Source: Bacillota bacterium
GTDB lineage: Bacteria > Bacillota > Clostridia > Peptostreptococcales > Anaerovoracaceae
Reading direction: 5' to 3'
Assembly (NCBI GenBank): GCA_017459895.1
Contig: JAFUCA010000036.1
Span: forward strand, 1-64,000
DNA length: 64,000 bases
The translations under genes and the position numbers were made by a program. The notes under the pieces are model-generated. The model saw only the letters and a program-made list of their open reading frames with translations, made no database searches and was not told where the DNA came from. This document shows, in pieces, positions 7,368 through 60,799 of this stretch. How positions within the stretch are numbered: position 1 is the stretch's first letter; each line of letters begins with the position of its first letter.

Positions 7368-8114
7368 GTGAGTTTGTATGCGATTGGAGATCTGCACCTG
7401 CACTTTCAGAGTGAAGTCAGATCCAAAAGCCAGCGGCGTGACCGCAGGTGGAAGAAGCACGAAGAAAAGCTGCGAAAGAACTGCGCTTCCATGATCTCGG
7501 AAGACGACACCCTGGTGCTGGTGGGAGACCACAGCTGGGGCAGGAAGCTGGCGGAGTGCGAAGAGGATTTTCAGTACATTCGGGAGCTTCCTGGAAGGAA
7601 GATCCTGATCCGCGGCAATCACGATCATTTTTGGGATGCGAAGAAGACGGGCAGGCTGAACGAACGATATAAACCGGAGCTGACCTTTCTGCAGAACAGC
7701 TTCGAAGTGTACCGGGAGTATGCCATCGTAGGGACGAAAGGCTTCACCTTCGAGGGTCCGTTCTATCTGGATAACCGCGGCCGGATCTTCGATTGGGACC
7801 GGTCAGCGGAGGCTCATTCCCGGGAACTGGTGGAACGGGAGCTCCAGCGTTTGCGCGATTCCTTCGAACAGGCAAAGGCTGGCGGGTACCGTAAGTACAT
7901 CCTGTTCCTGCACTATCCTCCGACGAACATCCTGGAGCGGGAGAGCGGATTCACGGAGATGGCAGAGGAGTACGGCGCGGAGCATTTGATCTACGCGCAC
8001 AGCCACGGAGAGATGCGGTTTCATGACAGCATTCAGGGTGAGAGGAACGGCATACAGTATCACCTGGTGTCGGGAGACTACCTGCGGTGGATGCCGGAGA
8101 AGATACTGGACTGA
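7368..8114 (+). CDS. Metallophosphoesterase
   Basis: This 248-residue calcineurin-like phosphoesterase carries GDLHLHF (metal-binding Asp and His), LVGDHSWGR, RGNHDHFWD, LHYPP and YAHSHGE, the five blocks of the family in order. The second block has GDHSW where many homologues of this subgroup have GDISW. The substrate is unknown. The start is GTG 7368, chosen because GGAGG lies six bases upstream and the conserved YAIGDLH begins at residue 4. The lipoprotein nuclease gene starts 6 bp downstream. Confidence 0.85.
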   Translation: MSLYAIGDLHLHFQSEVRSKSQRRDRRWKKHEEKLRKNCASMISEDDTLVLVGDHSWGRKLAECEEDFQYIRELPGRKILIRGNHDHFWDAKKTGRLNERYKPELTFLQNSFEVYREYAIVGTKGFTFEGPFYLDNRGRIFDWDRSAEAHSRELVERELQRLRDSFEQAKAGGYRKYILFLHYPPTNILERESGFTEMAEEYGAEHLIYAHSHGEMRFHDSIQGERNGIQYHLVSGDYLRWMPEKILD

Positions 8115-8120
8115 TGACCT

Positions 8121-8990
8121 ATGAGAAAGCATTTATCATTACTTCTGATCATTGGAATGACGTTTTGCCTGTTCGCCGCCTGCGGGATGAGTCAGGAGGA
8201 AGCCTCCATCCCGCAGTCTCAGCCGGCCATTGCGGAAGATGACTTCACGATTCCGAAATACGATGGAGAACCATCGGTTGCGGTGAACGGGAACAATCCT
8301 GTCTTCGATGATGAACTGAAGACCGAGACTTCCTTCGAGACTTACGGGGAACTGGACAAGCGCGGCCGGTGCACTGCGGCAATGGCGAACCTGTCGGTGG
8401 ATACGCAGCCCTCCGCTGCGGAGGAGAGAGGAGATATCTCATCGGTTCATCCCTCCGGCTGGAGATCCGGGCAGGGATGGGAACGGTGTCATCTGATCGG
8501 GTGGCAGCTGTCGGCGGAGAATGACAACAACAGGAATCTGGTCACCGGGACACATTACATGAATGTGGACGGTATGCTTCCGTATGAGAACGAGGTGGCC
8601 TGGTATATCGAGGACACCGGCAATCACGTGCTCTACGAGGTTGAGCCGGTGTTCAAGGGCAAGAATATGATCTGCGCCGGCGTCCATATGCAGGCGGAGT
8701 CGGTGGAGGACAACGGGAAGGGTGTCTCCTTCAACGTATTCTGCTTCAATGTGAGCCCGGGCTGCGAGATCAATTACAAGACCGGAGAAGTCACCGTGAC
8801 GGATGAAGCGGTCGCATCGGCGAATGCTTTCGAGAGGGCCTATGTGATCAACAGGAATTCGATGAAGTTCCATTATCCGTCCTGTGACAGCGTGGCGAAG
8901 ATGTCGGAGCACAACAAGGAGACGGTCACGGCATCCAGGCAGGAACTCATCAAGCAGGGGTATGAACCCTGCGGGAATTGTGAGCCATAA
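8121..8990 (+). CDS. Secreted lipoprotein DNA/RNA non-specific endonuclease (EndA-like)
   Basis: The N-terminus is a lipoprotein signal (LFAACG lipobox near residue 21). Residues about 110-235 contain the beta-beta-alpha-metal nuclease core of the EndA family: ERCHLIGWQL with the catalytic His, then NDNNRNLVTGT and NVDGML. The usual DRGH reads ERCH. The C-terminal 40 residues have a YPSCDSVAKM...CGNCEP cysteine module resembling the small Ada-like metal-binding tail often found on extracellular nucleases. In streptococci EndA degrades one strand during DNA uptake; here it could equally serve nutrition or defence. Confidence 0.8.
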   Translation: MRKHLSLLLIIGMTFCLFAACGMSQEEASIPQSQPAIAEDDFTIPKYDGEPSVAVNGNNPVFDDELKTETSFETYGELDKRGRCTAAMANLSVDTQPSAAEERGDISSVHPSGWRSGQGWERCHLIGWQLSAENDNNRNLVTGTHYMNVDGMLPYENEVAWYIEDTGNHVLYEVEPVFKGKNMICAGVHMQAESVEDNGKGVSFNVFCFNVSPGCEINYKTGEVTVTDEAVASANAFERAYVINRNSMKFHYPSCDSVAKMSEHNKETVTASRQELIKQGYEPCGNCEP

Positions 8991-8992
8991 AA

Positions 8993-11546: not shown

Positions 11547-12332
11547 ATGACAGAGAAAGTTTTATTTTTTGACATTGACGGAACCATATACAGAGAAGGA
11601 TACGGAGTGTACGAAAGCACCCGGCAGGCGCTGCGCCGCTGCGCGCAGCAGGGGCACCGCCTGATGATCTGCACGGGCAGGGGAGCATCCTCCATTCCGG
11701 ACGAAGTCGCGGACCTGCCGTTTGAAGGCGGGGTCTTCGGCTGCGGAACGTATGTGACCGCAGGCGGACGGGTGCTGGCCGATGAGGCCGTTATGGGCAC
11801 TCACTGCAGGGACATCATCGAAATCCTCTATGACAACAACTGCCCCTTCTTTGTCAATAATTCCGACTACATCTATTATGATCCCGGCGAGACCCCGGAA
11901 GGGTTCGAGCAGATCATCCGGCGCATGAAATACGCGTACCACGGACGGCTCCAGCCTTTGCAGGAGCTTCCGGGACGCATCTCCAAGCTCACCGCCTACC
12001 CCCGGGACAAGAGCCGGATCCCGCAGATCGAATCGGAGCTTTCGCGGTGGTTCGACTGCATCGTCCATCCGGACTACGACTACATCGAGCTGGTTCTCAA
12101 GGGCTGCACCAAGGGAACCGGTGTGGAGCAGATCCTCCGGCATCTGGGCACGGCGCGGGAGGATTCCTACGGGTTCGGAGACAGCAAAAACGACATCCCG
12201 ATGCTGGATGCCGTCGGCTGCGGGGTCATCATGGAGGAAGCGCCCGATGAGATCAAAGGCAATTACTTTCGCGCCGGCTCCATTCACGGAGACGGGCTTT
12301 CGGAGGCACTGCAAAGGCTGGGGCTCATCTGA
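11547..12332 (+). CDS. HAD-superfamily phosphatase, Cof/IIB type
   Basis: This 261-residue hydrolase has motif I FFDIDGTIY with the nucleophilic Asp and acid/base Asp, motif II ICTGRG, a Lys in the cap (KLTAYPRDK) and motif IV GFGDSKNDIPML. The large C2-type cap identifies the Cof subfamily, which dephosphorylates sugar phosphates or FMN-like compounds; the specific substrate cannot be read from the sequence. No Shine-Dalgarno sequence is visible before ATG 11547, and TAAACT eight bases upstream could be a -10 element, so translation may start near the mRNA end. Confidence 0.85.
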   Translation: MTEKVLFFDIDGTIYREGYGVYESTRQALRRCAQQGHRLMICTGRGASSIPDEVADLPFEGGVFGCGTYVTAGGRVLADEAVMGTHCRDIIEILYDNNCPFFVNNSDYIYYDPGETPEGFEQIIRRMKYAYHGRLQPLQELPGRISKLTAYPRDKSRIPQIESELSRWFDCIVHPDYDYIELVLKGCTKGTGVEQILRHLGTAREDSYGFGDSKNDIPMLDAVGCGVIMEEAPDEIKGNYFRAGSIHGDGLSEALQRLGLI

Positions 12333-13203: not shown

Positions 13204-15384
13204 ATGTCAGAGGAACGGCGAATCGTAACGATCGATGAGAAACAATACGAAACCAGGGAAGATATTCTGCGGTTCATTGCGCAGGAACTGGACTTCCCGG
13301 ACTACTTCGGGCTGAACTACGACGCCCTGAATGACTGCCTCGGCGAGATCGGCAGACCAACGACCCTGCGGTTCCTGCAGGAAGGGGATCGGTTCCGATC
13401 GGACGGGGCAGGGATGATTTATGAAATCGCGAGCCGCGTTGCCGAATGGAATCCGAATCTTCAGGCGGAGATCCGAAAAATCACCCCGCGGCGAAGAGTG
13501 CAGAGACGAAAGAGAAACCACAAAAGACTGCTTTCCGCCCTGCTGATGCTGACTGTGCTGATGGTGTTTACGTGCGTTCCAGCCTTTGCGGCATCCACCG
13601 CCAGCGGCACCTTCGGAGGCGGATTCCATTGGAAACTGGACAGCGCGGGCACACTGACCGTCACCGGCAGCGGAGCGATGCCGAATTTCGACAACGGGAC
13701 CCCATGGGAGGGTAAAAAAAATAAAATCAAGAAAGTCATCATCGGCAAGGGTATCACCGGGATCGGCGCTTACGCATTTCAGTATTGCCCGATCACATCG
13801 GTGCAGCTGCCGGACGGACTGACCTCCATCGGCAAGGAGGCGTTTAACGGTACGAAGCTGCAAAAGCTGGAGCTGCCGGACAGCGTGAATAAACTGGGAT
13901 CCTTCAGTTTTCAGTTCTGCGATCAGCTGAAGAGCCTGAAGCTGTCGGCGGGCTGTGCCGTAATTCCGGAGTACGCGTTCAGTGCCTGTGATGCTCTGAC
14001 CGAAGTCAATGTGCCGCAGGGTGTGACCACCATCGGTGAGAACGCATTCGGCGTGTGTAAAAAGCTGTCGGCTGTACATCTGCCGCCGTCTCTGAAGAGG
14101 ATCGAAAAATCGGCGTTCACCAAAGCGAATTTCGGGTCCTTCGATGGGGTCGCGTCCATCGACACAATCGAATTTCCCGAGGGACTGGAGTACATCGGAA
14201 ACGATGCCTTCGGCTCCTGCGGACTTTCGGAGGATGTGGTGATTCCCTCTTCCGTGGAGTACATCGGCCGGGAGGCATTCTTCGCTACGGACCTGGGATG
14301 GAAGCTGATGGTCGAAAGCGAGGAGCATCCCGGAATGGTGATCGTCGGTACAACGCTGATGAATTACAAGGGTACGGCGGAGGTCGTGGAGGTGCCGGAA
14401 GGCATTACTGCCATCAGCAATTACGCATTTCAGGGACTGGATCCGATGGAAGAGGGCGGATCCTGGAGATCCGGAATGTCCATCGGACTGCCGTATGATC
14501 AGAAGACAAAGAAGGTGATCCTGCCATCGTCTGTGAAATACATTGGAGAGGAAGCCTTTTTCGGAGCAAAAGCGCTGGAGGAGATCAACCTGAACCAGGT
14601 GAGCATCATCGAAAGCGGTGCCTTCTGGAATTGCAAAAAACTGAAAAAAGCGGTGCTTTCTCCGCAGATTCGTTCCTGCGGAGGACATGCGTTCATGGGC
14701 TGCAGCCAGCTTCAGTCGATAAATACCGGAGGACTGCGGGCGATTCCGGCGAGTTTCCTCCGCAGTGACACCAACCTGACCAGCGCGGTCTACGGAGCGG
14801 CGGTGGATTCCATCGGAGAATCCGCCTTCTATGACTGTAAGAAGCTGACCAGCTTCCCAAAGCTGTCGGGAAAGGTCACAAAGATTCCGGACTACGCATT
14901 CTATAATTGTAAGGGAATGAAGAAGATCAGTCTGCCGGCGTCGCTGAAGAGCATAGGAGATGCAGCCTTTGCGTACTGTACGGGACTGAGCTCGACTATT
15001 ACGATTCCTCCGGCAGTGAAGTCGATCAGCTATGAAGCCTTCAAGAAATCCGGAGTGAAGAAGATCAAGGGAGTCATGGGATCCGGAGCCTACACCTACG
15101 CGAAGAACCACGGCCTTTCCTTTGCCGAGATGGGAACGAAGAAGCAGACCGTGCGGGCTGCGGTTAAGACAAAATCCGTGAAGGCATCCAAGGTAAAGAA
15201 AAAATCGCAGATCGTGGAACCCATTCGGATCCGATCGGCGAAGGGGACGGTGCGCTACAAGATAGCCAGTGGCAGCGCCAAATCAAAAAAGGCATTGAAG
15301 GTAGCAGCGAAGACCGGGAAGGTAACCGTGAAGAAGGGCACGAAGAAAGGTACCTATACCCTCAAGGTGAAAGTATCAGCCTAG
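13204..15384 (+). CDS. Barstar domain fused to a BspA-type leucine-rich-repeat surface protein (C-terminus cut by an amber codon)
   Basis: Residues 1-90 are a barstar-like RNase-inhibitor domain: DFPDYFGLNYDALNDCL aligns with barstar, including the two acidic residues that contact barnase. A basic linker (RRRVQRRKRNHKR) and one hydrophobic segment ending CVPAFAA follow near residues 105-130. Then come about a dozen LRR_5/BspA repeats (IGAYAF.YC...LPDGLTSIG style) to about residue 640 and a Lys-rich Ig-like tail. The basic-hydrophobic order predicts barstar inside and repeats outside. GGAGG at 13191-13195 fits ATG 13204. After VKVSA the frame meets TAG (15382-15384), and 19 further family-typical codons follow to TAA. 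Confidence 0.75.
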   Translation: MSEERRIVTIDEKQYETREDILRFIAQELDFPDYFGLNYDALNDCLGEIGRPTTLRFLQEGDRFRSDGAGMIYEIASRVAEWNPNLQAEIRKITPRRRVQRRKRNHKRLLSALLMLTVLMVFTCVPAFAASTASGTFGGGFHWKLDSAGTLTVTGSGAMPNFDNGTPWEGKKNKIKKVIIGKGITGIGAYAFQYCPITSVQLPDGLTSIGKEAFNGTKLQKLELPDSVNKLGSFSFQFCDQLKSLKLSAGCAVIPEYAFSACDALTEVNVPQGVTTIGENAFGVCKKLSAVHLPPSLKRIEKSAFTKANFGSFDGVASIDTIEFPEGLEYIGNDAFGSCGLSEDVVIPSSVEYIGREAFFATDLGWKLMVESEEHPGMVIVGTTLMNYKGTAEVVEVPEGITAISNYAFQGLDPMEEGGSWRSGMSIGLPYDQKTKKVILPSSVKYIGEEAFFGAKALEEINLNQVSIIESGAFWNCKKLKKAVLSPQIRSCGGHAFMGCSQLQSINTGGLRAIPASFLRSDTNLTSAVYGAAVDSIGESAFYDCKKLTSFPKLSGKVTKIPDYAFYNCKGMKKISLPASLKSIGDAAFAYCTGLSSTITIPPAVKSISYEAFKKSGVKKIKGVMGSGAYTYAKNHGLSFAEMGTKKQTVRAAVKTKSVKASKVKKKSQIVEPIRIRSAKGTVRYKIASGSAKSKKALKVAAKTGKVTVKKGTKKGTYTLKVKVSA

Positions 15385-16026: not shown

Positions 16027-18291
16027 ATGACGACAGCAACCGGTAACACCGAGAAAAAACTGATCATAGCGGAGAAGCCGTCCCTGGGACGGGCCATCAT
16101 GAGCTCGCTCCCGGAGAAGTTCGAAAAGAACGAGGAGTACTACAGCTCGGAGCACTATTACGTGGTGCCGCTGCACGGTCACATCCTGGAGCTGAAGGAC
16201 TTCGAGGACTATAAAGTCAACGAAGGCAGGGGAATGTGGAACGTGAAAAATCTGCCGTTCTTTCCCGAGCAATATGAGTACCGCATCTCCAAGGGCAATC
16301 AGAAAATCTATAACTGCATCCGGCGGCTGCTGAAGGAGCCGCAGGTCACGGAGGTCATCCACTGCGGCGACGCGGACCGGGAAGGGCAGATCATCGTCGA
16401 CCTGGTCCTGGAGAAGATCGGAAACAGCAAGCCCGTCACCCGGCCCTTCATCAAGTCTACGACGAAGGCTGGGCTGCAGCAGGCCTTTGCAGAGCGCCGG
16501 CCGAACGAGGAGTACCGGAACATCAATGCCGAAGGCAAGACCCGGGAGTATGTGGATTTTGACTTCGGAAAGAACCTGTCCCGGTTCGCAAGCCGCAAGG
16601 CAGGCGTGCGGACGGGACTCAACGTGGGCCGGGTCATCGGCGCCATCGTTACGGCGATCTACGACCGGGATATGGAGATCGAGAACTTCGTGCCCCGGGA
16701 GTTTTTTAAGGTCGAATCGGACGGCGAGGTCAAGCTGACCTCAAAGAGGGAATTTTCGAAAGAGGAGGCAGCCGCAGCGCAGGATTATGCCGACCGCCTG
16801 AACGAAGCCGATGCCGTCGTCACCGGCGTGAAGAAGGCGAAGCAGACGAAGAAGCCGCCGAAGCTCTTTTCTCAGACGGACCTGCAGGGAGCGGCCAATA
16901 AGCGCTACGGATTCTCCCCGAAACGGACTCTGAAGGCGGCCCAGGCCCTTTACGAAAAAGGCCTGATCACCTATCCCAGAACCAACACCAACTTCATGGC
17001 CCAGGGCGACCGGCCGATGGTGGGCGCCATACTGAAGAAGATGGGCGATGACTTTGAGATGAAACCGGTGTTCGATGACAGCAAGGTGGACGGGCACTCG
17101 GCCATCACTCCCACCGGGGAAGCCGGCAGCTCCGAAAAGTACAGGAAGCTGGGCGCCGACGAACAGAAGGTCTATATGATGGTGCTGAATCGCTTTAAAG
17201 CCGTGTTCTGCAAGGAGCCCTGCACCGTTTTGAAAACCACCGTGACCATTGACGCCCGGGACCCGAAGAGCGGCGAGTCCATCGAGGAGTTCAAGGTCAG
17301 CGGGGAAGTGCCCCTGACCCCGGGCTGGAAAAAATACGAGCACGTGAATGAACAGGTGAACCAGCTGCCGGACCTGAAGGAGGGGGAGCTGGTGGAGCAT
17401 GACTTTCAGCCCGTCGCCTCCCAGACCAAGCCGCCTGCCCACTACACCGTTACCACCCTGGGCAAATGGATGCAGAACCCCTTCCGAAGGTCCGAAGAGG
17501 ATGAGATCGACTACGCGAAGATGCTCTCCGGCATGGAGATCGGAACCGAAGCCACCCGGGCCGCCATCATCGATAAGGCCATCGCCAAGAGCTACATTGA
17601 CCTGACGAAGAACACCTATACCATCCAGCCGAACGGGCGGTTTCTGGTGGAGACCTGCCGGGCGCTGGGGATCGATATGTCCAGCGTGAAGACCGCGGAG
17701 ATGGGACGGGATACCAAGGCGGTTTCCAGGGGAGAGAAGACCTGCGAGGAAGTTCTGGGCGAGGTGCGGGAAGAGATCCGGCGGATCATCCGCGGGGAGG
17801 GTCAGCCGGGTGATGCAGACGCAGGTCCCATCAGCGGACCGAAGCAATCCCGCTATACCTGCCCCCGGTGCGGCCAGCCTTTGCAGGAGACCTTCCAAAA
17901 GCTGGAGTGTCCCGGCGGAGACTACAGCCTTTGGAAGAGCGTGGCGAAGAAGATGCTGGATGAGAAGACCATCGAGACGCTGCTCGCCGGGAAAACGACA
18001 CCGCTGCTGCGGGGGTTTAAGAGCAAGACGGGAAGATCCTTCGGCGCCCGGCTGGTGCCGGCGGAGGACGGCAGTGTCAGCTTCGAATTTGACAAGGCGC
18101 CGGAGAAGGTGTCCCTGGGAAACTGCCCGAAATGCGGCAAACCGGTGTATGAGAACAAGAAGGGCTTCGGATGCTCCGGATGGAAGCCGGGGGGCAAAGG
18201 CTGCGACTTTGTCATCTGGAAATACGACAGGGCGACAAAGAAAAAAACCACCGCCGAAGAAGCGAAGAATCTTCTTGCAAACCGCACATAG
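16027..18291 (+). CDS. topB: DNA topoisomerase III (type IA)
   Basis: This 754-residue enzyme relaxes and decatenates DNA by cutting one strand. The TOPRIM domain carries the metal-binding motif CGDADREGQ (near residue 117), the catalytic tyrosine is Y316 in GLITYPRTNTNFM, and the central type IA gate domains follow. The C-terminus has one CPRCGQPL and one CPKCGKPV zinc-ribbon-like repeat, the usual extension of Firmicutes TopB. Length is normal. The last codons hold the -35 element of the rpsO promoter. Confidence 0.93.
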   Translation: MTTATGNTEKKLIIAEKPSLGRAIMSSLPEKFEKNEEYYSSEHYYVVPLHGHILELKDFEDYKVNEGRGMWNVKNLPFFPEQYEYRISKGNQKIYNCIRRLLKEPQVTEVIHCGDADREGQIIVDLVLEKIGNSKPVTRPFIKSTTKAGLQQAFAERRPNEEYRNINAEGKTREYVDFDFGKNLSRFASRKAGVRTGLNVGRVIGAIVTAIYDRDMEIENFVPREFFKVESDGEVKLTSKREFSKEEAAAAQDYADRLNEADAVVTGVKKAKQTKKPPKLFSQTDLQGAANKRYGFSPKRTLKAAQALYEKGLITYPRTNTNFMAQGDRPMVGAILKKMGDDFEMKPVFDDSKVDGHSAITPTGEAGSSEKYRKLGADEQKVYMMVLNRFKAVFCKEPCTVLKTTVTIDARDPKSGESIEEFKVSGEVPLTPGWKKYEHVNEQVNQLPDLKEGELVEHDFQPVASQTKPPAHYTVTTLGKWMQNPFRRSEEDEIDYAKMLSGMEIGTEATRAAIIDKAIAKSYIDLTKNTYTIQPNGRFLVETCRALGIDMSSVKTAEMGRDTKAVSRGEKTCEEVLGEVREEIRRIIRGEGQPGDADAGPISGPKQSRYTCPRCGQPLQETFQKLECPGGDYSLWKSVAKKMLDEKTIETLLAGKTTPLLRGFKSKTGRSFGARLVPAEDGSVSFEFDKAPEKVSLGNCPKCGKPVYENKKGFGCSGWKPGGKGCDFVIWKYDRATKKKTTAEEAKNLLANRT

Positions 18292-21052: not shown

Positions 21053-22492
21053 ATGAAGAAGAAGCTTTTCGTTCGAAGGATGCTCGTGGGTGTCCTGATC
21101 CTGTGTCTCAGCAGCGTAACAGCCCTCAGCGGCCTTCCGGAGCAGATCGTTACCGATACAGGGCTGCAGGTTTCTGCTGCCAGCTATCCGAAACTCAAGA
21201 CCATTACCTATACGAAGACGGGCAATCAGAAGAACGATATCATCGGTTTCGCCAAGACCCAGGTGGGCTATGCCGAAGCCAGCGGCAACAACACCTACTT
21301 CGGCCACTGGTTCGGACTGAACTACGCCCCGTGGTGCGCCATGTTCGTTTCCTGGTGTGCTGCAAAGGCTGGCGTATCCAAGTCGGTGGTGCCGCGGCTG
21401 GCGAGCGCGGACCGTTCCTGGGCGAAGAATCAGAAAGTCTATTATAAGTCAAAGCAGTGGGGCGGCACCTACACCCCGCAGAAGGGCGATCTGATCTATT
21501 TCTCCTGGAGCGTCCGGGATTACGCGGATCACATCGGCATGGTCACAGGAACATCGGTCAGTGACGGCAAGACCTACGTCAACACCATCGAAGGCAACAA
21601 GCGCGATAAGGTCGTAACCGCCTCCTATCTTTTGAGCAACAAATACATTCTTGGATACGCCCATCCGAAGTATACCACCGGAACAGAGGAGCAGACGCAG
21701 ACGACCACCACTGGGGAGCCGGTTCCCTTCACCCTCAAATACAGGGACGGACTGATCGAGACCGATAACGATGAAGAGGATGCCATCATCCAGCCCACGG
21801 AGGGGACCTTCGGCCAGGATCTGACGTTGTCCGATCTGAAGTTCACGAGGACCGGATACAAATATACCCAGTGGATGATCTACCGGGAAAACAGCAACGG
21901 TGAACTGATCTACCTCTGCCGGGATAATGCGACATCCACGAAGGAGAAGTGGAAGACGTCCGATGCCATTCCATCCGGTTATTCCGCCGTGCGGATCAAC
22001 CTGGGAGGGGCTCTGAAGATCAATACCGCAGTCAGCGGTGTCATATACGCGGCTCCGGACTGGGCCATTAAGAAGTACAAGGTGACCTACGATGTGAACG
22101 GAGGACGGACCGTGCCCTCTGCGCAGAAGAAGACCTACGGGAAGGCGCTGAAGCTGACGACGAAGAAACCGACCTGGGCCGGTTACCGGTTCCTGGGCTG
22201 GAGCCTGGAGAAAAAGAGCGGCATCGTTGCCTTCCGGCCGGGAGACAAATATACAAAGAATAAAGCCATGACCCTGTACGCGGTCTGGAAGCCGCTGACA
22301 ACGTCATTCAAGGTCAAGGTCGTGAAGAAGGGCGGCACGAAGCTGCGGTCCGGTCCGGCCGGCACCTTTAAGGCGAAAAATAAGGTAAAGAAGGGCAAGC
22401 AGCTTCGGATCGTCAAAATTAAAAACGGCTGGGGCAAGATCAAAGGGAAAAACAAATGGATCAAACTGAAGTTTACCAAACAGATTAAATAG
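21053..22492 (+). CDS. Secreted CHAP-domain amidase with InlB-type repeat and SH3-like domain
   Basis: After a signal peptide (KKKLFVRRMLVGVLILCL...) residues about 60-200 form a CHAP (NlpC/P60-like) peptidoglycan hydrolase: the catalytic Cys in APWCAMFVSWCA and His in YADHIGMV. A middle beta region is followed by one InlB B-repeat (KYKVTYDVNGG...YRFLGWS, ending TLYAVWKP) and a basic C-terminal SH3b-like domain (GTKLRSGPAGTFK). It probably cleaves cell-wall peptides, with the C-terminal domains binding the wall. ATG 21053 has GGGGGAG eight bases upstream; the ATG six bases earlier is possible. Confidence 0.82.
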   Translation: MKKKLFVRRMLVGVLILCLSSVTALSGLPEQIVTDTGLQVSAASYPKLKTITYTKTGNQKNDIIGFAKTQVGYAEASGNNTYFGHWFGLNYAPWCAMFVSWCAAKAGVSKSVVPRLASADRSWAKNQKVYYKSKQWGGTYTPQKGDLIYFSWSVRDYADHIGMVTGTSVSDGKTYVNTIEGNKRDKVVTASYLLSNKYILGYAHPKYTTGTEEQTQTTTTGEPVPFTLKYRDGLIETDNDEEDAIIQPTEGTFGQDLTLSDLKFTRTGYKYTQWMIYRENSNGELIYLCRDNATSTKEKWKTSDAIPSGYSAVRINLGGALKINTAVSGVIYAAPDWAIKKYKVTYDVNGGRTVPSAQKKTYGKALKLTTKKPTWAGYRFLGWSLEKKSGIVAFRPGDKYTKNKAMTLYAVWKPLTTSFKVKVVKKGGTKLRSGPAGTFKAKNKVKKGKQLRIVKIKNGWGKIKGKNKWIKLKFTKQIK

Positions 22493-31191: not shown

Positions 31192-31199
31192 GGTATCGT

Positions 31200-41282: not shown

Positions 41283-42410
41283 ATGAAACGACAGGTAATA
41301 TGCGGGGATGTGAAGATCGGGGGAGGCGCTCCCATCAGCATCCAGTCCATGACAAATACGAAGACTGCCGATGTGCCCTCGACCATGCGGCAGATTGATG
41401 CGCTGACGGAGGCCGGCTGTGAGATCATCCGGCTGGCGGTCCCGGACCGGGACGCGGCGGAGGCGCTGAAGGAGATCAAGCGCAGATCCCGGATTCCCGT
41501 GGTGGCGGACATTCATTTCGATTACCGGCTGGCCCTGGCCTCCATGGAAGCCGGCGTCGATAAGATCCGGATCAACCCGGGGAACATCGGCGGTGAGGAA
41601 AACGTCCGGAAGGTGGTGGAGATGGCAAAGGCCCGGCGCATTCCCATCCGGGTCGGTGTCAATTCCGGCTCCCTGGAGAAGGATATTGTGGCCAGGGACG
41701 GGGGCGTCAGTGCAGAAGGCCTGGCGGAAAGCGCCCTGCGCAACGTTCGCCTTCTGGAGAAATTCGATTTTGAGGACATCGTGATCTCGCTGAAGTCCTC
41801 CAATGTGAAAATGAACGATCAGGCATACCGCATCGTCGACGATCGGTGCGACTATCCGCTGCACATCGGCGTGACGGAAGCCGGAACCCCGGCCAGGGGA
41901 CGGACCAAGTCGGCGGCGGGTATCGGCGCGCTGCTGCTTTCCGGCATCGGCGACACCCTGCGGGTCTCCCTGACGGCGGATCCGGTGCAGGAGGTGCTGT
42001 TTGCCAGAGAGCTGCTGGACGTGCTGGACATCCGCAAATCCGGCATCGAGATCGTTTCCTGTCCCACCTGCGGCAGAACCGAGGTGGATCTGGAACGGAT
42101 CATCGATCGGATCGAGCAAAGGCTGGAGCCGCTGAAGAAGACCTTCGAAGCACGGCGGCAAAGGCCCGGCGTCCTCAGCGGCGGCGCCGGCGGTGCTGCC
42201 AGCATGAAGATCGCCGTCATGGGCTGCGTCGTCAACGGTCCGGGGGAAGCCCGGGAAGCCGATATCGGCGTGGCCTGCGGCAAGGGTAAAGGCGTACTCA
42301 TCCGCAAGGGAGAGATCCTCCGGCAGGTGACCGAGGAGAACATACCAGAAGAAATTTGCAGACTGGCAGAGGAATATGCAGAAATCACTTACGGAATCCA
42401 TACAATTTGA
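41283..42410 (+). CDS. ispG: 4-hydroxy-3-methylbut-2-enyl diphosphate synthase
   Basis: This [4Fe-4S] enzyme of the non-mevalonate pathway has 375 residues, a TIM barrel with PISIQSMTNTKT and VADIHFDYRLAL, and the cluster ligands in SCPTCGRTEVD and MGCVVNGPGEA. The short bacterial form lacks the plant insert. GGAG precedes ATG 41283. polC starts within its final 35 bases. Confidence 0.96.
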   Translation: MKRQVICGDVKIGGGAPISIQSMTNTKTADVPSTMRQIDALTEAGCEIIRLAVPDRDAAEALKEIKRRSRIPVVADIHFDYRLALASMEAGVDKIRINPGNIGGEENVRKVVEMAKARRIPIRVGVNSGSLEKDIVARDGGVSAEGLAESALRNVRLLEKFDFEDIVISLKSSNVKMNDQAYRIVDDRCDYPLHIGVTEAGTPARGRTKSAAGIGALLLSGIGDTLRVSLTADPVQEVLFARELLDVLDIRKSGIEIVSCPTCGRTEVDLERIIDRIEQRLEPLKKTFEARRQRPGVLSGGAGGAASMKIAVMGCVVNGPGEAREADIGVACGKGKGVLIRKGEILRQVTEENIPEEICRLAEEYAEITYGIHTI

Positions 42411-45400
42411 CCAATACAAGGGCTGCCGGCCGGAGGACATCCGGCCGGAAGTGCGGCAGGCATTCCTGTCCAAAGACCGGCGGGTGCTCCATCTGGACAT
42501 GGTGCTCAATTTCATCATGTCCGCGGACGAGATCGAGCAGTTCAAGCAGCGTCTGCTGAAGAAGCTGCCGGGGATCCGGCAGGTGGACCTGACCATCGAG
42601 CCGCGCAATGCCCTGAACGAAGCGCAGCTGAAGCAGCAGGAGCAGGAGCGGGCCGCCAGAGCGGCCGAGGCCGCCGCGCAGCGGGGTGAATACGGAGGCC
42701 TGGGAAGTTTCGCCGAAGGAGGTTCATCTGCGGCGGGAGCATCCGGCGCGGCAGGAAACTCCGGAAAAGGCGCCGGGGGAGCACCGAGGCGCGGCCGCAG
42801 GCGCAGGAAGTTCGTTCCCGCGCAGGGAAACCGGATCATGGGTGATCCGGTCAATGCTCCCGTGCTCCCCATCAGCGAGATCACTTCCGAAAGCGGCACC
42901 GTCGCCATCGAAGGCGAGCTGTTCAACAAGGACTGCCGCACCACCAGGAGCGACAGCAAGCTGGTCAGCCTTTTTGTGACGGATAAGCGCACCAGCCTTT
43001 GCGTGAAAGCCTTCGTCGTCAACGAGAAATGGGACGAGATCGACGGGATGCTCTCTCCGGGCGACGGGGTGAGGATCCAGGGACTGGCCCAGTGGGACCG
43101 GTTCGACAACTGTGTCACCATCATGGCGGATACCATCGAGAAGACCGAGGTGAAGGAACGGACGGACACCTGCGAGCGCAAGCGGGTCGAGCTGCACGCC
43201 CACACCAAGATGAGCGCCATGGACGGGCTCAACGACGTCAAGCACATGGTCAAAACCGCAGAGAAGTGGGGCCATCCCGCGGTGGCCATCACCGACCACG
43301 GCGTGGTGCAGGCCTTTCCGGACGCGTCCCATGCGGCGAAGAACATCAAGATCCTCTACGGCTGCGAAGGTTATCTGCTGGACGACCGGGAGCTGATCCG
43401 GGAAGACGGCAGCATCGACTACAAGGCACGGCCGACCAACCACGTGATCCTGTTCGCGAGGAATCGGGAGGGGCTGAAGAACCTGTACCGGCTGGTTTCC
43501 ATTTCCCATCTGGAGTATTTCTATAAGAAGCCGCGGCTTCCCAGATCCGTCATCGAAAAGTACCGGGAGGGACTGATCATCGGTTCCGCCTGCGTCATGG
43601 GGGAGATCTATCAGGCGATCCTGAGGGATGCCCCCGAAGAGGAGCTGGAGTACCTCGTACGCTTCTATGACTACCTGGAGATCCAGCCTTTGGTCAACAA
43701 CCACTTCCTGATCGACGGGAAGAAGATCAAGGACGAGGAGGATCTGAAGGAGCACAACCGGCGCATCATCGCCCTGGGCGAGAAATACGGCAAGCCCGTG
43801 GTCGCCACCTGCGACGCCCACTATTTTGACGCGGAGGAAGCGCTGTACCGGCGGATCCTGATGGCCGGGCAGGGCTTTAAGGACGTGGAGGGCGATGAGG
43901 GCCTGTATTTTCGGACCACCGACGAGATGCTGGAGGAATTCTCCTACCTGGGAGAGGAACTGGCCTATCAGGTGGTGGTGGAGAACACCAACCGGATCGC
44001 GGACATGATCGAGCCGATGATGCCCGTGCCCGACGGCAAATTCCCGCCGAAGATCGACGGGGCCGAGGATGCGCTGCGAGAGGCCTGCGCCGAGCGGGCC
44101 GCCGCCATGTACGGGGATCCGCTGCCGGAGGAGATCCGGCAAAGGCTGGACAAAGAGCTCAATTCCATCATCGATAACGGATACGCGGTCATGTACCGCT
44201 CCGCCGAAATGCTGGTCAAAAAGTCCCTGTCGGACGGATACCTGGTGGGATCCCGGGGGTCCGTCGGATCCTCCTTTGCCGCCACCATGTCCGGCATCAC
44301 CGAAGTCAATCCGCTGCCGCCCCACTACCTGTGCCCGAAGTGCAAGCACCTGGAGTGGGGGGATCTGCAGGAGTACGACTGCGGCGTGGACATGCCGGAT
44401 AAGGTCTGTCCGGAGTGCGGAACGCCGTACCGGAAGGAAGGATTCAATATTCCCTTTGAGACCTTTCTCGGATTCAACGCCAACAAGGAGCCGGATATCG
44501 ACCTGAACTTCGCGGGGGAATACCAGGGCACCGCGCAGAAATACGTGGAGGAGATCTTCGGTGCGGAGAACGTTTTCAAGGCCGGCACCATCGGCACCAT
44601 CAAGGATAAGACAGCCTTTGGATACGTAGCGAAATACTTCGAAGAGCGGGGGATCAGCGCCAACCGGTTCGAGCTGGACCGGCTGACCGGCTGCTGCGCC
44701 GGCGTGCGAAGGACCTCGGGACAGCACCCCGGCGGCGTCATCATCGTGCCCCGGGGCCACGAGATCTACGAGTTCTGCCCCGTGCAGCACCCGGCCAACG
44801 ATGTGAATTCCGACATCATTACGACCCATTTCGATTATCACTCCATCGATCAGAATCTGCTGAAGCTGGATATCCTGGGGCACGACGCGCCGTCCATGAT
44901 CCGCCAGCTGCAGGATATGACCGGGATCGACCCCATGGACGTTCCCCTGAAGGACGAACGGGTCATGTCGATCTTCATCGGAACCGACGGCCTTGACATT
45001 CAGGATCCGGACTACCGGTTCTCCCACGGATCCTTCGGTATCCCGGAATTCGGAACCAAGTTTGTCCGCCAGATGCTGGATGACATTCAGCCCACCTCCT
45101 TCGAGGAGCTGATCCGGATCTCCGGACTGTCCCACGGAACCGATGTCTGGCTGGGCAACGCCCAGGACATCGTGGTAAACGGCATCGCCACCATGAAGGA
45201 AGCCATCGCCACCCGGGATGACATCATGAACTACCTGCGAAAAAAAGGTCTTCCCAACGCCGACGCCTTCACCATCATGGAGAAGGTCCGAAAGGGCAAG
45301 GGGCTGACGGAGGAACAGGAACTGCAGATGCGGGAGCACGACGTGCCCGACTGGTACATCGATTCCTGCAAGAAGATCAAATACATGTTCCCCCGGGCCC

Positions 45401-46610: not shown

Positions 46611-47822
46611 ATGAATGATTTTATGAACGCAATCGATGATCTGGTCAAAGAGAAAGGGATCACGAAGGAACTCCTGATGGATGCCATCGAGTCCGCACTG
46701 GTCGCCGCCTACAAGAAGAACTATGGCACGGCCCAGAACGTCAGAGTCGTGTTCGAAGGCGACATGGAAGGCATCGAGGTGCTGATGAGAAAGGACGTCG
46801 TGGAGGAAGTCGAAGACGAATTCACTCAGATTTCTCTGGAAGAAGCTCTGGAGATCGACCCGCGTTATCAGGTAGGAGACGTGGTCGAATATCAGGTGAC
46901 ACCGCAGAATTTCGGCCGGATCGCGGCCCAGACCGCCAAGCAGGTCGTGGTACAGAAGATCCGGGAAGCCGAGCGCGGCATGGTCTTTGACAACTACATC
47001 AACCGGCAGGGCGATCTGATCACCGGCGTCGTTCAGCGAATCAGCAACGAGACGATCTTCGTCAACATCGGCAACACCGAGGGCATTCTGGTCGCCGGCG
47101 AGCGGGCCAGAGGCGAGCGGTTCCGTGTCAACGACCGGATCAAGGCATACATCATGGACGTGCGCAAGAGCACCAAGGGACCTCAGATCTTCCTCTCCAG
47201 GACCCACCCGGGATTTGTGGAGCGGCTGTTTGAGCTGGAGGTTCCCGAGATCGAGGACGGCATCGTCGAAATCAAGAGCATTGCCAGAGAGGCGGGCTCC
47301 CGGACCAAGATCGCGGTCTACACCGAGGACGAAGATGTGGATCCGGTGGGCGCCTGCGTCGGCACCGGCGGCAGCAGAGTCCGCAACATCGTGGACGAGC
47401 TGTTCGGCGAGAAGATCGACATCACCACATGGGATGACGATCCGAAGATCCTGATCAAGAACGTGCTCAGCCCGGCCAAGGTAGAGGAAGTCCTGATCGA
47501 CGAGGAAGAGAAGGCAGCGACGGTCATCGTACCGGATTATCAGCTGTCCCTGGCCATCGGCAAGGAAGGACAGAACGTCCGCCTGGCAGCCAGACTTTGC
47601 GGATGGAAGATCGACATCAAGAGCCACTCCCAGTACTTCGGAGACGAAGAAGACGAGTACTACGATGATGACGAGTACTACGACGACTACGAGGACGGCG
47701 AGTACATCGAAGAGGCTGAGGAAGCCGAAGCAGCGGAAGAGACTGAGGAATCGGAAGAAACCGAAGAGGCCGATGCAAAGGCTGGCGAGGCTGAGGAGGT
47801 CGAAACAGCCGAAGAGGAATAA
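46611..47822 (+). CDS. nusA: Transcription termination/antitermination protein NusA
   Basis: This 403-residue protein binds RNA polymerase and nascent RNA. It has an N-terminal domain (residues 1-125), S1 (about 130-200, GDLITGVVQRISNETIFV), KH1 and KH2 (about 225-350, DPVGACVGTGGSRVRNIV and SLAIGKEGQNVRLAARL) and a very acidic tail (about 345-403, repeats of E, A and D/Y). The tail contains an AKAG copy of the GCAAAGGCTGG repeat. Confidence 0.96.
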   Translation: MNDFMNAIDDLVKEKGITKELLMDAIESALVAAYKKNYGTAQNVRVVFEGDMEGIEVLMRKDVVEEVEDEFTQISLEEALEIDPRYQVGDVVEYQVTPQNFGRIAAQTAKQVVVQKIREAERGMVFDNYINRQGDLITGVVQRISNETIFVNIGNTEGILVAGERARGERFRVNDRIKAYIMDVRKSTKGPQIFLSRTHPGFVERLFELEVPEIEDGIVEIKSIAREAGSRTKIAVYTEDEDVDPVGACVGTGGSRVRNIVDELFGEKIDITTWDDDPKILIKNVLSPAKVEEVLIDEEEKAATVIVPDYQLSLAIGKEGQNVRLAARLCGWKIDIKSHSQYFGDEEDEYYDDDEYYDDYEDGEYIEEAEEAEAAEETEESEETEEADAKAGEAEEVETAEEE

Positions 47823-52978: not shown

Positions 52979-54042
52979 AAGACGGAATCCTGGTGCTGAA
53001 CAAGCCCCGCAGCTGGACTTCCCACGACTGTGTTGCTCTTTGCCGCAGAGTGCTGCGGCTCAAGGGCGTAAAAAAGATCGGCCACGGAGGAACGCTGGAT
53101 CCGATGGCGGAAGGCGTGCTCCCGATCTTCATCGGTCAGGCGACCCGGATCATGGAATATCTGGATCTGGATTACAAGACCTACACCTGCCGGGTGCAGC
53201 TGGGGCTGGTCACCGATACCCAGGATATCTGGGGAACGGTGCTGGAAGAGAAGTCCTTTGGCGGGATCCGGGAAGAGCAGGTGCGGGAGGCGCTGGCATC
53301 GTTTGAAGGAGTCATAGAGCAGATCCCGCCGGTGTATTCTGCGGTGCGCATCGACGGCAAACGGCTGTACGAGTATGCCCATCAGGGCAGGACGGACGAA
53401 GCCGCGCAGCTGGCGAATCTGGCCGCCCGCCGGGTGCACGTGCGGCGGATCACGGTGCACGAGATCGATATGGAGCAGGGGACACTTTGTTTTACAGCGG
53501 AGTGCTCCAAGGGGACCTATATCCGGACCATCTGCGCGGACCTGGGGCAGGCCCTGGGCTGCGGCGCGGTGATGACCGGCCTGGTGCGAACCGCCATCGG
53601 CGGGATCACGCTGGAGGGGGCCGTCAAGGAGGACCCTGCCGCGGGATCCGGCAGGGCCGTCAGCCCGGAGCAGATCAAAGCCATGGAAGGAGATCCCGCG
53701 CTGCTTTCCAGGCTGGAAGGAATGCTGCTTTCGCCCGACCAGCCTTTGCATCGGTTCGGAGAGATCGTGATGCCGGCGGACCGGGCGAAATACTTCCGGC
53801 AGGGAAACAGTATCCGCCTGTATCAGCTGCGAAAGACGGCGCTGCCGCAGATCGAAGTCAATCCGCTGACCGGAGAGATCCCCCGCAATGCCCGGGGACG
53901 GCGCTATGACCGGATCTACCGGGTGTACCAGCAGGAGAACGGACTGTTTCTCGGGACCGGCTGCGAGGATCTGCAGGAGGGCGTACTGAAGGCGGACAAG
54001 GTGTTTCAGGCTCTGAACGAGCCGAAGAATCAGAAGAAGTAA
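52975..54042 (+). CDS. truB: tRNA pseudouridine synthase B
   Basis: This makes pseudouridine 55 in tRNA. The 355 residues include GILVLNKPRSWTSHD, the catalytic Asp in GHGGTLDPMAEGVLPI, YTCRVQLG and RTICADLGQALG. It is longer than most TruB proteins, the extra length being a C-terminal domain (about 240-345) containing YRVYQQENGLFLG that may be a PUA-like RNA-binding domain. Confidence 0.93.
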   Translation: MKDGILVLNKPRSWTSHDCVALCRRVLRLKGVKKIGHGGTLDPMAEGVLPIFIGQATRIMEYLDLDYKTYTCRVQLGLVTDTQDIWGTVLEEKSFGGIREEQVREALASFEGVIEQIPPVYSAVRIDGKRLYEYAHQGRTDEAAQLANLAARRVHVRRITVHEIDMEQGTLCFTAECSKGTYIRTICADLGQALGCGAVMTGLVRTAIGGITLEGAVKEDPAAGSGRAVSPEQIKAMEGDPALLSRLEGMLLSPDQPLHRFGEIVMPADRAKYFRQGNSIRLYQLRKTALPQIEVNPLTGEIPRNARGRRYDRIYRVYQQENGLFLGTGCEDLQEGVLKADKVFQALNEPKNQKK

Positions 54043-55327: not shown

Positions 55328-56596
55328 ATGAAAGACGCGACAAAATGCCTGCACGCAGGATACCATCCGAAGAATACCGAACCCAGAGTTCTGCCGATCG
55401 TTCAGAGCACGACCTATGTGTACGATTCCACAGAGGACGTAGCCGCGGTGTTCGACGATCCGACCAGATCCCTGATCTATTCCCGATTCGCCAACCCGAC
55501 GGTCATGGCGGTGGAGGAGAAGATCGCGGAGCTGGAGGGCGGCGTTGCGGCCATGTGCACTTCCTCCGGTCAGGCGGCATCCCTGCTTTCGGTGCTGAAC
55601 CTCTGCCAGGCGGGGGACAGCATCATCAGTTCCGCCGAGATCTACGGCGGGACAATCAACCTGTTTGCCTTCACCCTGAAGAAGCTGGGGATCGAGTGCA
55701 TCTTTGTTGACCGGGACGCAAGCGATGAGGAGATCCACGCGGCATTCAAGCCCAATACCAAGCTGATCTTCGGCGAGACGCTGGCCAATCCGGCGCTGAC
55801 CGTGTTCGACATCGAGCGGTTTGCAAACATTGCTCATGAGCATCGCGTGCCGCTGATCATCGACAACACCTTTGCCACACCGATCCTGTGCAAGCCCTTC
55901 GAATTCGGCGCGGACATCGTGGTGCATTCCACGACCAAGTACATGGACGGCCACGCGGTGCAGGGCGGCGGCGTCATCGTCGACTCCGGCAAGTTTGACT
56001 GGACCAGCGGCAACTTCCCCGAGCTGACAGAGCCGGACGAATCCTATCACGGGATCATTTACACAGAAACCTACGGCAATCTGGCCTATATCCTGAAAGC
56101 CCGGATGCAGCTGATGCGTGACTTCGGATGCTATCCCGCAGCCCATTCAGCCTTTCTGCTGAACCTGGGGCTGGAGACGCTGCCCGTGCGGATGAAGCAG
56201 TACTGCGAAAACGCCCTGGCCGTTGCGAAGTACCTGGAGGCCTGCGATCTCGTGGAGAGCGTCCACTATCCGGGGCTGGAGTCCGATCCGTGCTATGAGC
56301 TGGGCAGGAAGTATCTCAAAGGCTGCAGCGGCGTCATTTCCTTCGTGATCAAGGGCGGCCGGGAGACGGCGATGAAGTTCATGGATTCCCTGCAGCTGGC
56401 TTCCAACGAGGTTCACGTTGCCGACATCCGCACCTGCGTGCTCCATCCGGCCAGCGAGACCCACCGGCAGCTGACCGACGAACAGCTGGTGGCCGCCGGC
56501 ATCGAAGCGGGGATGATCCGGCTTTCGGTAGGCCTGGAGGATATCGATGATATTCTGGCGGATCTGGAGCAGGGATTTGCAAAGGCTGGAGCATAG
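55328..56596 (+). CDS. metY: O-acetylhomoserine sulfhydrylase (PLP enzyme)
   Basis: This condenses O-acetylhomoserine with sulfide to give homocysteine. The 422-residue Cys/Met-metabolism PLP enzyme shows IVQSTTYVYDSTEDVAAVF, YSRFANPT, GEIYGGT-like SAEIYGGTINLF, IIDNTFATP and the PLP lysine in HSTTKYMDGH. The C-terminus has RLSVGLEDIDDILADLEQ. The MetA homologue two genes downstream supplies its substrate. A GCAAAGGCTGG copy lies at its extreme 3' end. Confidence 0.92.
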   Translation: MKDATKCLHAGYHPKNTEPRVLPIVQSTTYVYDSTEDVAAVFDDPTRSLIYSRFANPTVMAVEEKIAELEGGVAAMCTSSGQAASLLSVLNLCQAGDSIISSAEIYGGTINLFAFTLKKLGIECIFVDRDASDEEIHAAFKPNTKLIFGETLANPALTVFDIERFANIAHEHRVPLIIDNTFATPILCKPFEFGADIVVHSTTKYMDGHAVQGGGVIVDSGKFDWTSGNFPELTEPDESYHGIIYTETYGNLAYILKARMQLMRDFGCYPAAHSAFLLNLGLETLPVRMKQYCENALAVAKYLEACDLVESVHYPGLESDPCYELGRKYLKGCSGVISFVIKGGRETAMKFMDSLQLASNEVHVADIRTCVLHPASETHRQLTDEQLVAAGIEAGMIRLSVGLEDIDDILADLEQGFAKAGA

Positions 56597-59041: not shown

Positions 59042-59078
59042 ACAAAAGCTGGCCCGAACATGGCAGGCCAGCCTTTGC
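59042..59078 (-). terminator. Terminator made of an inverted pair of the GCAAAGGCTGG word
   Basis: On the minus strand GCAAAGGCTGGCC pairs with GGCCAGCTTTTGT (one mismatch) across an 11-base loop, immediately after the stop codon of the 59081 gene. A short T run is part of the second arm. The same stem on the plus strand has no T tract. Confidence 0.6.
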
Positions 59079-59080
59079 AG

Positions 59081-59920
59081 TTACATATACGGGAGGATCC
59101 GGCGGACGATGATGTCACGAATGAAATTGCCGTCTTCCAGATCCCGCTCCACTGTCATGATCAGCATTTCCTCGCTGACATAACCGCCCTGACGGGCAGC
59201 GGCGAACTTTTCGGCATTGCGCATGCGGTAATCCAGGAGATCCAGACGTCCGAGATGCTCCCAGACGATCTTCTCGCCGGATGCGGTCAGAATGATGAAG
59301 TCAGGATAGTAAGCCTTCCAATCATCGTAGACATTGCCGCGGACACCTTCCACCCAGCCGATCTTCAACATCACCTTCTGACCGTAGCGGTAGGGGATGC
59401 CTTCCATCTCAAGCTCGTTGCCAATGTCCCGTTCGGACTTGGAACGCATCCGAATCCCGGAATAGGTCTCGTAGTATTTTTCCCCTGGCTGAATCACATC
59501 CCGGGGGTAGTCTTCGTGGACCCAGTGGTACTGCTCCGGCGAAAGAGTGATGCGAAGCAGATCCAGATGGGCTTTTTTGTATCGATCCAGAAGGAACCGG
59601 ATCTGCTTCGAGGCGGGCAGGGGTTTCGGATTCAGAACATACTGCCCGCGCCTGAAACCGTACTGCTTCTCATGCTCCTGCAGTTTCAGCTTCAGATATT
59701 TCTTTCGCGCGAGTTTATAGATGAGGTCCAGATCGTGGGTGATGGAGGACCGCTCGCCGCTCAGTACCCGGTCAAAGTAATACCGGCCCCCGGCAGGCTT
59801 GATTATGAGGCCGCCTTCCGGCATTTTTCGCAGTTCCTCCCGCCAGAGCTTCGCGCTCTTTTCCTCAAGGCGCAGGATGATCAGCAGTGCCTGCTGAAAG
59901 GAAGATAATTCCGGCTTCAT
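59081..59920 (-). CDS. Conserved protein with PD-(D/E)XK nuclease-like core
   Basis: This 279-residue protein has a basic helical N-terminal half with LLIILRLEEKSAKLWREEL and a C-terminal block RSKSERDIGNELEMEGI, YYPDFIILTASGEKIVWEHLG. The order Glu ... Pro-Asp ... Glu-x-(His/Lys) is that of PD-(D/E)XK nucleases, with His or Leu at the usual Lys position, so activity is uncertain. Related proteins are widespread in Firmicutes without known function. It is followed by a hairpin terminator. Confidence 0.55.
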   Translation of the reverse strand: MKPELSSFQQALLIILRLEEKSAKLWREELRKMPEGGLIIKPAGGRYYFDRVLSGERSSITHDLDLIYKLARKKYLKLKLQEHEKQYGFRRGQYVLNPKPLPASKQIRFLLDRYKKAHLDLLRITLSPEQYHWVHEDYPRDVIQPGEKYYETYSGIRMRSKSERDIGNELEMEGIPYRYGQKVMLKIGWVEGVRGNVYDDWKAYYPDFIILTASGEKIVWEHLGRLDLLDYRMRNAEKFAAARQGGYVSEEMLIMTVERDLEDGNFIRDIIVRRILPYM

Positions 59921-60192
59921 CCCGGAAGCCTCTCATCCGGCGCATTCCGCCGCAGAGCAAAATAAACGGACACAGCGCAGATTGCAAGAGACAGCACGTA
60001 TCCCGCGATCAGAAATGCCAGCGCGGCAGGGTGGATGAACTGGGAAAGCGCCGGCAGCAGCGTATCATCTGTAACCGCCTGGCCGCGCATGAAGTCCGCC
60101 CACTGGATCAGCAGGGCGCTCCCGGCAAGGCAGATGCACAGCGGCATCTGGCACAGCACTAGCAGCAGAACGCGTACGGAAATATTTATCAT
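59917..60192 (-). CDS. Small two-segment membrane protein
   Basis: This 91-residue protein has two hydrophobic segments (about residues 5-28 and 48-72) joined by a polar loop. ATG 60192 is preferred to the upstream start at 60255 because AAGGAG precedes it and it begins the hydrophobic segment directly. It overlaps the gene at 59081 by four bases and is downstream of the secreted-protein gene. The function is unknown. Confidence 0.6.
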   Translation of the reverse strand: MINISVRVLLLVLCQMPLCICLAGSALLIQWADFMRGQAVTDDTLLPALSQFIHPAALAFLIAGYVLSLAICAVSVYFALRRNAPDERLPG

Positions 60193-60217
60193 CGGTAACT
60201 CCTTTCTGTGTTTGACC

Positions 60218-60799
60218 TTATTTCGGCGCGGTAGTGGAACAGAGCTGATAGGCAAAGTGAGCGAACTTCTTCGCCTTGATCCAGCGGGTGTTTCGGGTCT
60301 TGTGCCACTTGCCGTCGTAAAACGAGTACTGCCGCGCCTTGATCTTGTAATTCTTGTAGACCCGCTTGTACTTGATGGCCCACCAGGAGCCTTTCTTCTT
60401 GCCCGTCAAACCGTAGGACTTGGAGGCCGTGGTCGACCAGGTTTTGCTCACATTGAACTGAAACGATGCGTTCAGCTTCTTGATGGGAATCCCGACGTTG
60501 CCGGACACGCTGTTGGAGACGCTTTTGGAGGAACCCATGGAAATGGAGTCCCCCGCGCCTCCGTCCGCTTTTGCGCGGATGCCGATGGCCCAGCCTCCGC
60601 TGGATTCACCGGCAGAGATCCGTTTGCCCTCCAGCTTCCACATGGTTCCGCCGCTGTCCCGGGCCGCGAAGGTGTGCGCCGGCTGCACCCAGACGTTGAG
60701 CAGGAAGAGGCAGGCGGCAGCCGCACAGATCATGCAAAGGCTGGCCCGCCGGTGATGGGCCAATAACAGCCGCATTTCATCGATAAGATTTCTGTTCAT
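60218..60799 (-). CDS. Secreted basic protein of unknown function
   Basis: A signal sequence (about residues 18-45, SLCMICAAAACLFLLNVWV) ends near FAA. The mature part has Ser/Gly-rich strands (GSSKSVSNSVSGNVG) and a Lys/Tyr/Trp-rich C-terminal region (WWAIKYKRVYKNYKIKARQY), suggesting a secreted beta-rich protein. AAGGGGG precedes ATG 60799. It may share a transcript with the two genes below it. No family recognised. A GCAAAGGCTGG copy lies in the signal peptide. Confidence 0.55.
   Translation of the reverse strand: MNRNLIDEMRLLLAHHRRASLCMICAAAACLFLLNVWVQPAHTFAARDSGGTMWKLEGKRISAGESSGGWAIGIRAKADGGAGDSISMGSSKSVSNSVSGNVGIPIKKLNASFQFNVSKTWSTTASKSYGLTGKKKGSWWAIKYKRVYKNYKIKARQYSFYDGKWHKTRNTRWIKAKKFAHFAYQLCSTTAPK

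Follow-up and report, generated by a model that had tools for sequence, protein, structure and literature searches.

The first 64,000 nucleotides of contig JAFUCA010000036.1 from a Bacillota bacterium of the class Clostridia (assembly GCA_017459895.1), called the window here, contain an 11-nucleotide (nt) word, GCAAAGGCTGG, that an initial annotation had proposed as a DNA uptake sequence (DUS). We found 21 exact copies, 11 on the forward (+) and 10 on the reverse (-) strand, in agreement with the roughly 21 repeats and the equal use of both strands reported before. The expectation by chance, previously estimated as 0.04 copies, amounts to 0.03 according to dinucleotide shuffling, and in none of the 100 shuffles were there as many as 21 copies. 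By frequency GCAAAGGCTGG is the top-ranking 11-mer of the window, and its core GCAAARGC occurs 43 times. According to our own codon-usage gene caller, 20 of the 21 exact copies lie within genes, ten in sense and ten in antisense orientation, and one copy (59068) is intergenic.

On the forward strand, exact copies lie in the genes for a calcineurin-like phosphoesterase (7872..7882), a HAD hydrolase (12311..12321, sense), a CHAP-domain protein (21362..21372), a pterin-binding enzyme (26510..26520), UppS (37986..37996), DXP reductoisomerase (39435..39445), GcpE/IspG (42116..42126), PolC (44139..44149), NusA (47775..47785) and a Cys/Met-metabolism pyridoxal phosphate enzyme of the MetY type (56579..56589), and in a called gene encoded on the reverse strand (60734..60744, within 60218-60799). 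Reverse-strand copies occupy the same HAD hydrolase gene in antisense orientation (11951..11961), a leucine-rich-repeat protein gene (13579..13589), a topoisomerase gene (17874..17884, with two copies of a 9-nt core at most 50 nt away), a gene for an AddA-like UvrD-helicase/PDDEXK protein (30432..30442, within 28117-31191), a called gene at 31134-31688 (31261..31271), the 5-formyltetrahydrofolate cyclo-ligase gene (34221..34231), DXP reductoisomerase, here in antisense (40175..40185), PolC, which holds two exact copies in total (42992..43002), and TruB (53739..53749). The remaining one forms an inverted, terminator-like pair (59043..59078), in which a near-copy on the forward strand is followed by the exact word on the reverse strand (59068-59078), directly 3' of a called gene on the reverse strand (59081-59920). 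Of the genes named in the initial annotation, NusA, TruB, PolC, UppS and MetY indeed hold exact copies, whereas the LarB-like gene with its AIR carboxylase domain (34773-35606) holds none and contains a single core at 35112.

The genes for a Mu/Tn7-type transposase and an AAA ATPase (780..3001, +) carry neither the word nor the core, as had been noted for the transposon. No exact copy is present in the entire segment from 1 to 7871. Since about two copies are expected in these 7.9 kb at the genome average, their absence there is no evidence of avoidance. Two other 11-mers are repeated in the window, TTTAGGTACAA (TTGTACCTAAA) five times and TTTGTACCTAAA four times, and possibly represent transposon ends or a short repeat.

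Abundance and strand symmetry in the source genome

The enrichment extends far beyond the window. The source genome (G000; 2,495,951 bases in 55 contigs, 93% complete, 5% contamination) contains 601 exact copies, 300 on the forward and 301 on the reverse strand, compared with three (1 + 2) of the reversed word, and the density of the exact word is 241 per Mb (601 in 2.50 Mb). For a closer view we used 224 kb consisting of the window and eight stretches of 20 kb, from which a partly duplicate contig of 9 kb was excluded; the word is denser in this sample than in the whole genome (0.33 vs 0.24 per kb). It holds 75 exact copies and 80 copies with one mismatch, of which 6 are expected, and apart from variants of GCAAAGGCTGG no 11-mer exceeds 10 copies. 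Independently of the word, GGATCCGG/CCGGATCC is about 11-fold over-represented in G000 (127 copies in the 224 kb), which could reflect codon usage.

In the sample the extended form of the word reads TGCAAAGGCTGG. CAAA (positions 3-6) and GC (8-9) are near invariant, and the other positions are more tolerant: positions 1 and 2 often hold C, position 7 often holds A, and position 12 accepts any letter. A comparison of the flanking letters revealed no conserved flank, for which the initial annotation had suggested a search, beyond a T directly before the word; this T is found with 15 of the 21 exact copies in the window and, in the sample, with 53% of the cores. Of the 75 exact sample copies 61 are genic and 14 intergenic, 12.5% of the sample lying outside called genes. 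The genic copies are distributed over sense and antisense orientation as 37 to 24 (p 0.12) and occur in all six reading frames (counts of 20, 3, 14 and 4, 9, 11), which extends the earlier observation of at least three frames plus intergenic copies. The use of six frames rules out codon bias in one frame as the cause of the enrichment.

The strand symmetry also holds within contigs. For the 100 of the 601 places that were listed, together with the window, the copies on the two strands (+/-) number 4/4 on contig C1, 3/2 on C2, 7/5 on C3, 5/5 on C4, 0/3 on C5, 21/22 on C6, 5/5 on C7 and 11/10 on the window part of C8, so that the majority strand holds 60 of 112 copies over these eight contigs. 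This balance speaks against Chi-like or KOPS-like sites, as had been argued from the window. The expectation of an even spacing did not hold up: on C6, the longest contig tested, the distances are random-like (coefficient of variation 1.02), and in the window they are somewhat evener than random (0.59). Where two exact words lie close together in the sample, the word is followed by its complement in three of three pairs, and the same order is seen in six of nine close pairs of the 9-nt core, although these numbers are small; three of the core pairs, again few, are intergenic and coincide with the 3' end of a gene or lie close to it.

A common core with different 3' ends

In a comparison with 80 relatives, only G001, G010, G011 and G045 proved to be enriched in the exact word (234 to 337 copies). 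G012 exhibits a weak enrichment (29 copies), and the remaining relatives have 19 or fewer. Stretches or loci from 39 further congeners revealed the reason: in related species the core persists while the 3' end differs. Over 49 congeners the summed density of GCAAARGCA and GCAAARGCT (genome sizes rounded to 0.1 Mb) is bimodal, with 34 genomes at 241-669 per Mb and 15 at 46-151 per Mb, which is close to background; G032 (297 per Mb, ratio to control 2.7) is counted among the 34, whereas the threshold of our script placed it otherwise. Summed over the other 33 enriched genomes, TGCAAARGC occurs 6777 times on the forward and 6781 times on the reverse strand. The reversed word turned out to be an imperfect control, being exceeded several-fold in other groups as well (163 to 19 in G113), and density was used as the criterion instead. 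A draw of 297 genomes of the order included 282 from outside the genus, and none of these reaches a comparable density; by our reading of the counts, GCAAARGCWG attains at most about 71 per Mb in them vs 437 per Mb in G000.

The letter that follows the core GCAAARGC differs between species, and these dialects, which share one core, follow the phylogeny as tested across the genus. Genome-wide, G000 has 1091 copies of GCAAARGCT and 79 of GCAAARGCA, G003 has 32 and 682, and G045 has 475 and 549, respectively. In G045 both forms co-occur on single contigs in three of four contigs inspected, which makes contamination (estimated as 7%) an unlikely cause. Within the clade of G000, the control-normalized abundance of the A form decreases from 8.1 in G045 over 4.3 in G001, 2.2 in G011 and 1.7 in G010 to 0.8 in G000. 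We interpret this series of counts as the possible decay of an older A dialect in the clade, the change to T having presumably passed through a species that reads both forms. Single sites can be followed as well: of the two PolC copies, the one at 42992 is kept in G011, G010 and G045, so that one site is retained in four genomes including G000, and the one at 44139 is kept in G011 and G013. At a different place, column 1447 of the PolC alignment, the core is present in 10 of 30 genomes, and in eight of these the 3' letter agrees with the dialect of the genome. Part of this retention may be due to kinship and to constraint on the protein.

In 13 of the 15 core-poor congeners (all except G005 and G009) we searched for an alternative word, and nothing clear emerged in 11 of them. 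In G019, which shows no core enrichment, GGGAGCATT occurs 12 times in 93 kb (L203-L207) with 0.65 copies expected and is perhaps another word or a repeat; the palindrome GGCCTATAGGCC is also present more than once in this genome. Several weaker over-represented words were seen in G040.

Transformation and pilus genes

The initial annotation had suggested a search for competence genes, and ComEC, DprA and Tad pilus genes are widespread in the genus. ComEC is encoded by 40 of the 49 congeners and by 17 of the 18 genomes of good quality, the sole exception being G019, which is 97% complete and without enrichment of the word. DprA was found in 45 of 49 and a CpaF-type ATPase of a Tad pilus in 43 of 49 congeners, the match ranges of the latter having been read by us. 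In addition, a TadE-like protein whose C-terminus bears two zinc-ribbon motifs of the HC...CxxC kind, called TadE-zinc here, was matched in 47 of 49 congeners, in G045 only with its pilin part. At locus L064 of G000 (14743-15504, +; motifs YHxxxC...CxxC) it is preceded by genes for CpaF, two TadB/C-like proteins, TadE and a DUF5702 protein, in this order. Across the genus its zinc-ribbon motifs are more conserved than its pilin part. Matches to Pfam are weak for TadE (6 of 11 members) and very weak for the Ada metal-binding domain (2 of 11, best E 0.095), and among solved structures there was no good match to its sequence. Ada-like zinc ribbons can bind DNA, which makes TadE-zinc a plausible DNA receptor and, judged from its sequence, a candidate for the receptor of the word.

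We asked whether TadE-zinc co-segregates with the word and rejected this as an argument for a receptor, as a control tree of ComEC displays the same split. The TadE-zinc tree comprises 44 of the 49 congeners; G012 (no intact frame, L329), G006 and G025 (no match), G044 (no locus) and G045 (pilin fragment) were left out. On this tree word presence needs one change (14 genomes without vs 30 with the word, support 91/87), as it does on the ComEC tree of 25 loci (9 vs 16, support 89/86). The PolC tree of 29 of the 49 congeners (30 loci, G006 having been dropped as an aberrant row) requires two changes, since G034 is placed differently, and rejects a single clade (approximately unbiased test, p 0.006). 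The TadE-zinc tree in turn rejects a clade of G034, G019 and G024 (p 0.0097) but not the larger group that also includes G028, G005 and G039 (p 0.12). Given the identical split from ComEC, PolC may be the gene that deviates, and the co-segregation argument is unspecific.

At L066 (8070-11891), G000 has another operon, with genes for PilC, a short pilin-like protein, a DUF4860 protein, a small membrane protein and the ATPase PilT; no gene of the PilB type was seen there. The PilT of G000 is 73-82% identical to relatives in many metagenome-assembled gut genomes of other lineages and 70% identical to that of the congener G008. Its gene is present in two identical copies, on a 9 kb contig (G000:C14) and on a 375 kb contig (G000:C34:335848), which is probably a duplicate of the assembly. 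A full-length, high-scoring match to a PilB-type ATPase was obtained in only 4 of 49 congeners (G035:C24, G003:C3, G041:C49 and G009:C135). As a determinant of the word the PilC-PilT operon was rejected, being neither sufficient nor necessary: 30 PilT-bearing genomes outside the clade (drawn from 33 of 80 listed loci, 3 of which belong to the clade itself) have 6 to 85 core words per Mb vs 286 in G000, and no PilT was seen in G021, a word-enriched genome of 96% completeness.

A probable uptake sequence and its alternatives

Copy number, strand symmetry, the use of all frames, a tolerant edge around an intolerant core, the dialects and the presence of transformation genes lend support to the original proposal, and we consider it probable that GCAAAGGCTGG is a DUS with dialects, its role in uptake being deduced from genome sequences. 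A surface DNA receptor of the machinery for natural transformation would bind TGCAAARGC together with a species-specific 3' end, which is CTGG here. Word-bearing DNA of kin would then be preferred over other DNA in uptake and recombination, and over time this uptake bias would multiply the word through molecular drive at all places where the proteins permit it. Shifts of the specificity between species would give rise to the dialects within the genus. We infer that the word acts at the step of DNA uptake, that the DNA may be carried by the Tad pilus (or by the PilT/PilC pilus in G000) and that the drive would follow the receptor.

The features resemble those of known systems. According to a passage of a 2025 paper, Neisseriaceae and Pasteurellaceae are the only families known to have an uptake word. 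The DUS of Neisseriaceae, as described in the portions consulted of the cited papers, is a likewise non-palindromic word of 9-12 nt with at least hundreds of copies that are equally distributed over both strands and genic; it forms species dialects around a shared core and inverted pairs at gene ends (PMC3630211, PMC1852404), the order of word and then complement being in excess in Neisseria and mostly so in Haemophilus (PMC1852404). Unlike the GCAAARGC found here, the core of those dialects is CTG; moreover, the present genus belongs to another phylum, and the most widespread pilus system found in it is of the Tad type. The uptake signal sequence (USS) of Pasteurellaceae is also short and strand-symmetric, with counts of 737/734 reported for Haemophilus influenzae, and exists in two types within the family, again going by excerpts. 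It differs in the word itself and in its conserved flanking segments, of which none were seen here. In our best reading, GCAAAGGCTGG has evolved separately from the DUS and USS of these families. Among Gram-positive bacteria, Tad genes serve transformation in Micrococcus luteus as demonstrated experimentally, and the abstract of that study reports no uptake word (PMC4322843). Tad genes are also widespread in the genus analyzed here. For Veillonella parvula, a member of the Bacillota, an uptake bias has been described, and in the part of the article consulted its authors thought a DUS unlikely (PMC5397411).

Several observations weigh against the proposed uptake function. The exact copies are sparser (241 per Mb) than in Haemophilus or Neisseria. 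A ComEA-like protein was not found by one narrow motif scan over a small part of each genome. Among the 15 word-poor congeners, 11 retain ComEC and 14 retain TadE-zinc (as included in the tree); the presence of the machinery therefore does not entail that of the word. Between lack of ComEC and lack of the word there is no significant association (Fisher p 0.13 under the script threshold or 0.43 under the 34/15 division; Mann-Whitney p 0.14), even if the three lowest core-to-control ratios of the 49 all belong to genomes without ComEC. Similarly, loss of ComEC or CpaF in 7 of 16 word-poor vs 6 of 33 word-rich genomes is not significant (p 0.086). The TadE-zinc tree separates the word classes no better than the ComEC tree. 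The sample contains too little mobile DNA (one transposase pair) to show an avoidance of such DNA, and three long gaps between exact words are occupied by seemingly ordinary genes, as judged from their translations, with near-copies present. Finally, the genomes are draft assemblies, most or all of them from metagenomes, and some are incomplete.

The best surviving alternative is a Chi-like hotspot, at which AddAB would pause during the repair of double-strand breaks so that the word would be kept by selection for repair. Chi sites are over-represented words of 5-8 nt that are used in recombination and favor the leading strand, and the window does encode an AddA-type UvrD-helicase/PDDEXK protein (28117-31191). 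However, the word described here is longer (11-12 nt) and evenly split between the strands within contigs, and neither a change of dialect among congeners nor inverted pairs would be expected of Chi. The 37 sense to 24 antisense genic copies leave room for a weak bias, and overall we regard a Chi-like role as unlikely. Slightly less credit still is due to a binding site of a chromosome-organizing or nucleoid protein, with which about 600 copies spread over the whole chromosome would be compatible. Known organizing sites such as parS, matS and those of Noc are regional, fewer or palindromic, whereas GCAAAGGCTGG is non-palindromic and sits within core genes in all frames and with dialects inside one genus. 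The explanation as a small mobile repeat, or as a side effect of biased codon or dinucleotide usage, has nothing in its favor besides the repetition and is refuted by the lack of a conserved flank beyond position -1, the use of all six frames, the 3 vs 601 copies of the reversed word and the lack of comparable density in the 282 genomes from elsewhere in the order.

A function as DUS remains the preferred explanation. Among the papers listed by a search of the open-licence literature, with subscription journals and preprints outside its scope, none reports a DUS from Clostridia, and the 13 papers that contain the letters of the word concern other subjects, judged from their titles. Systems of this kind are already known; the occurrence in this genus, the word and the series of dialects are apparently new as far as could be found. 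A more far-reaching and tentative proposal, which we hold to be rather doubtful as a whole, is that the genus represents a third independent case of self-recognizing DNA uptake and the first in Gram-positive bacteria, in which DNA would be taken up via a Tad pilus with a TadE-like minor pilin reading the word by its two zinc-ribbon (Ada-like) domains and in which a switch of dialect would be in progress, G045 reading both forms and its sisters successively losing the old one. If the word is indeed a DUS, a third such system, in Gram-positive gut bacteria, would mean that this trait arises repeatedly. Several dialects and a bilingual intermediate would then provide a natural series for studying how receptor and word change together, and frequent natural transformation among relatives in the gut would be implied.

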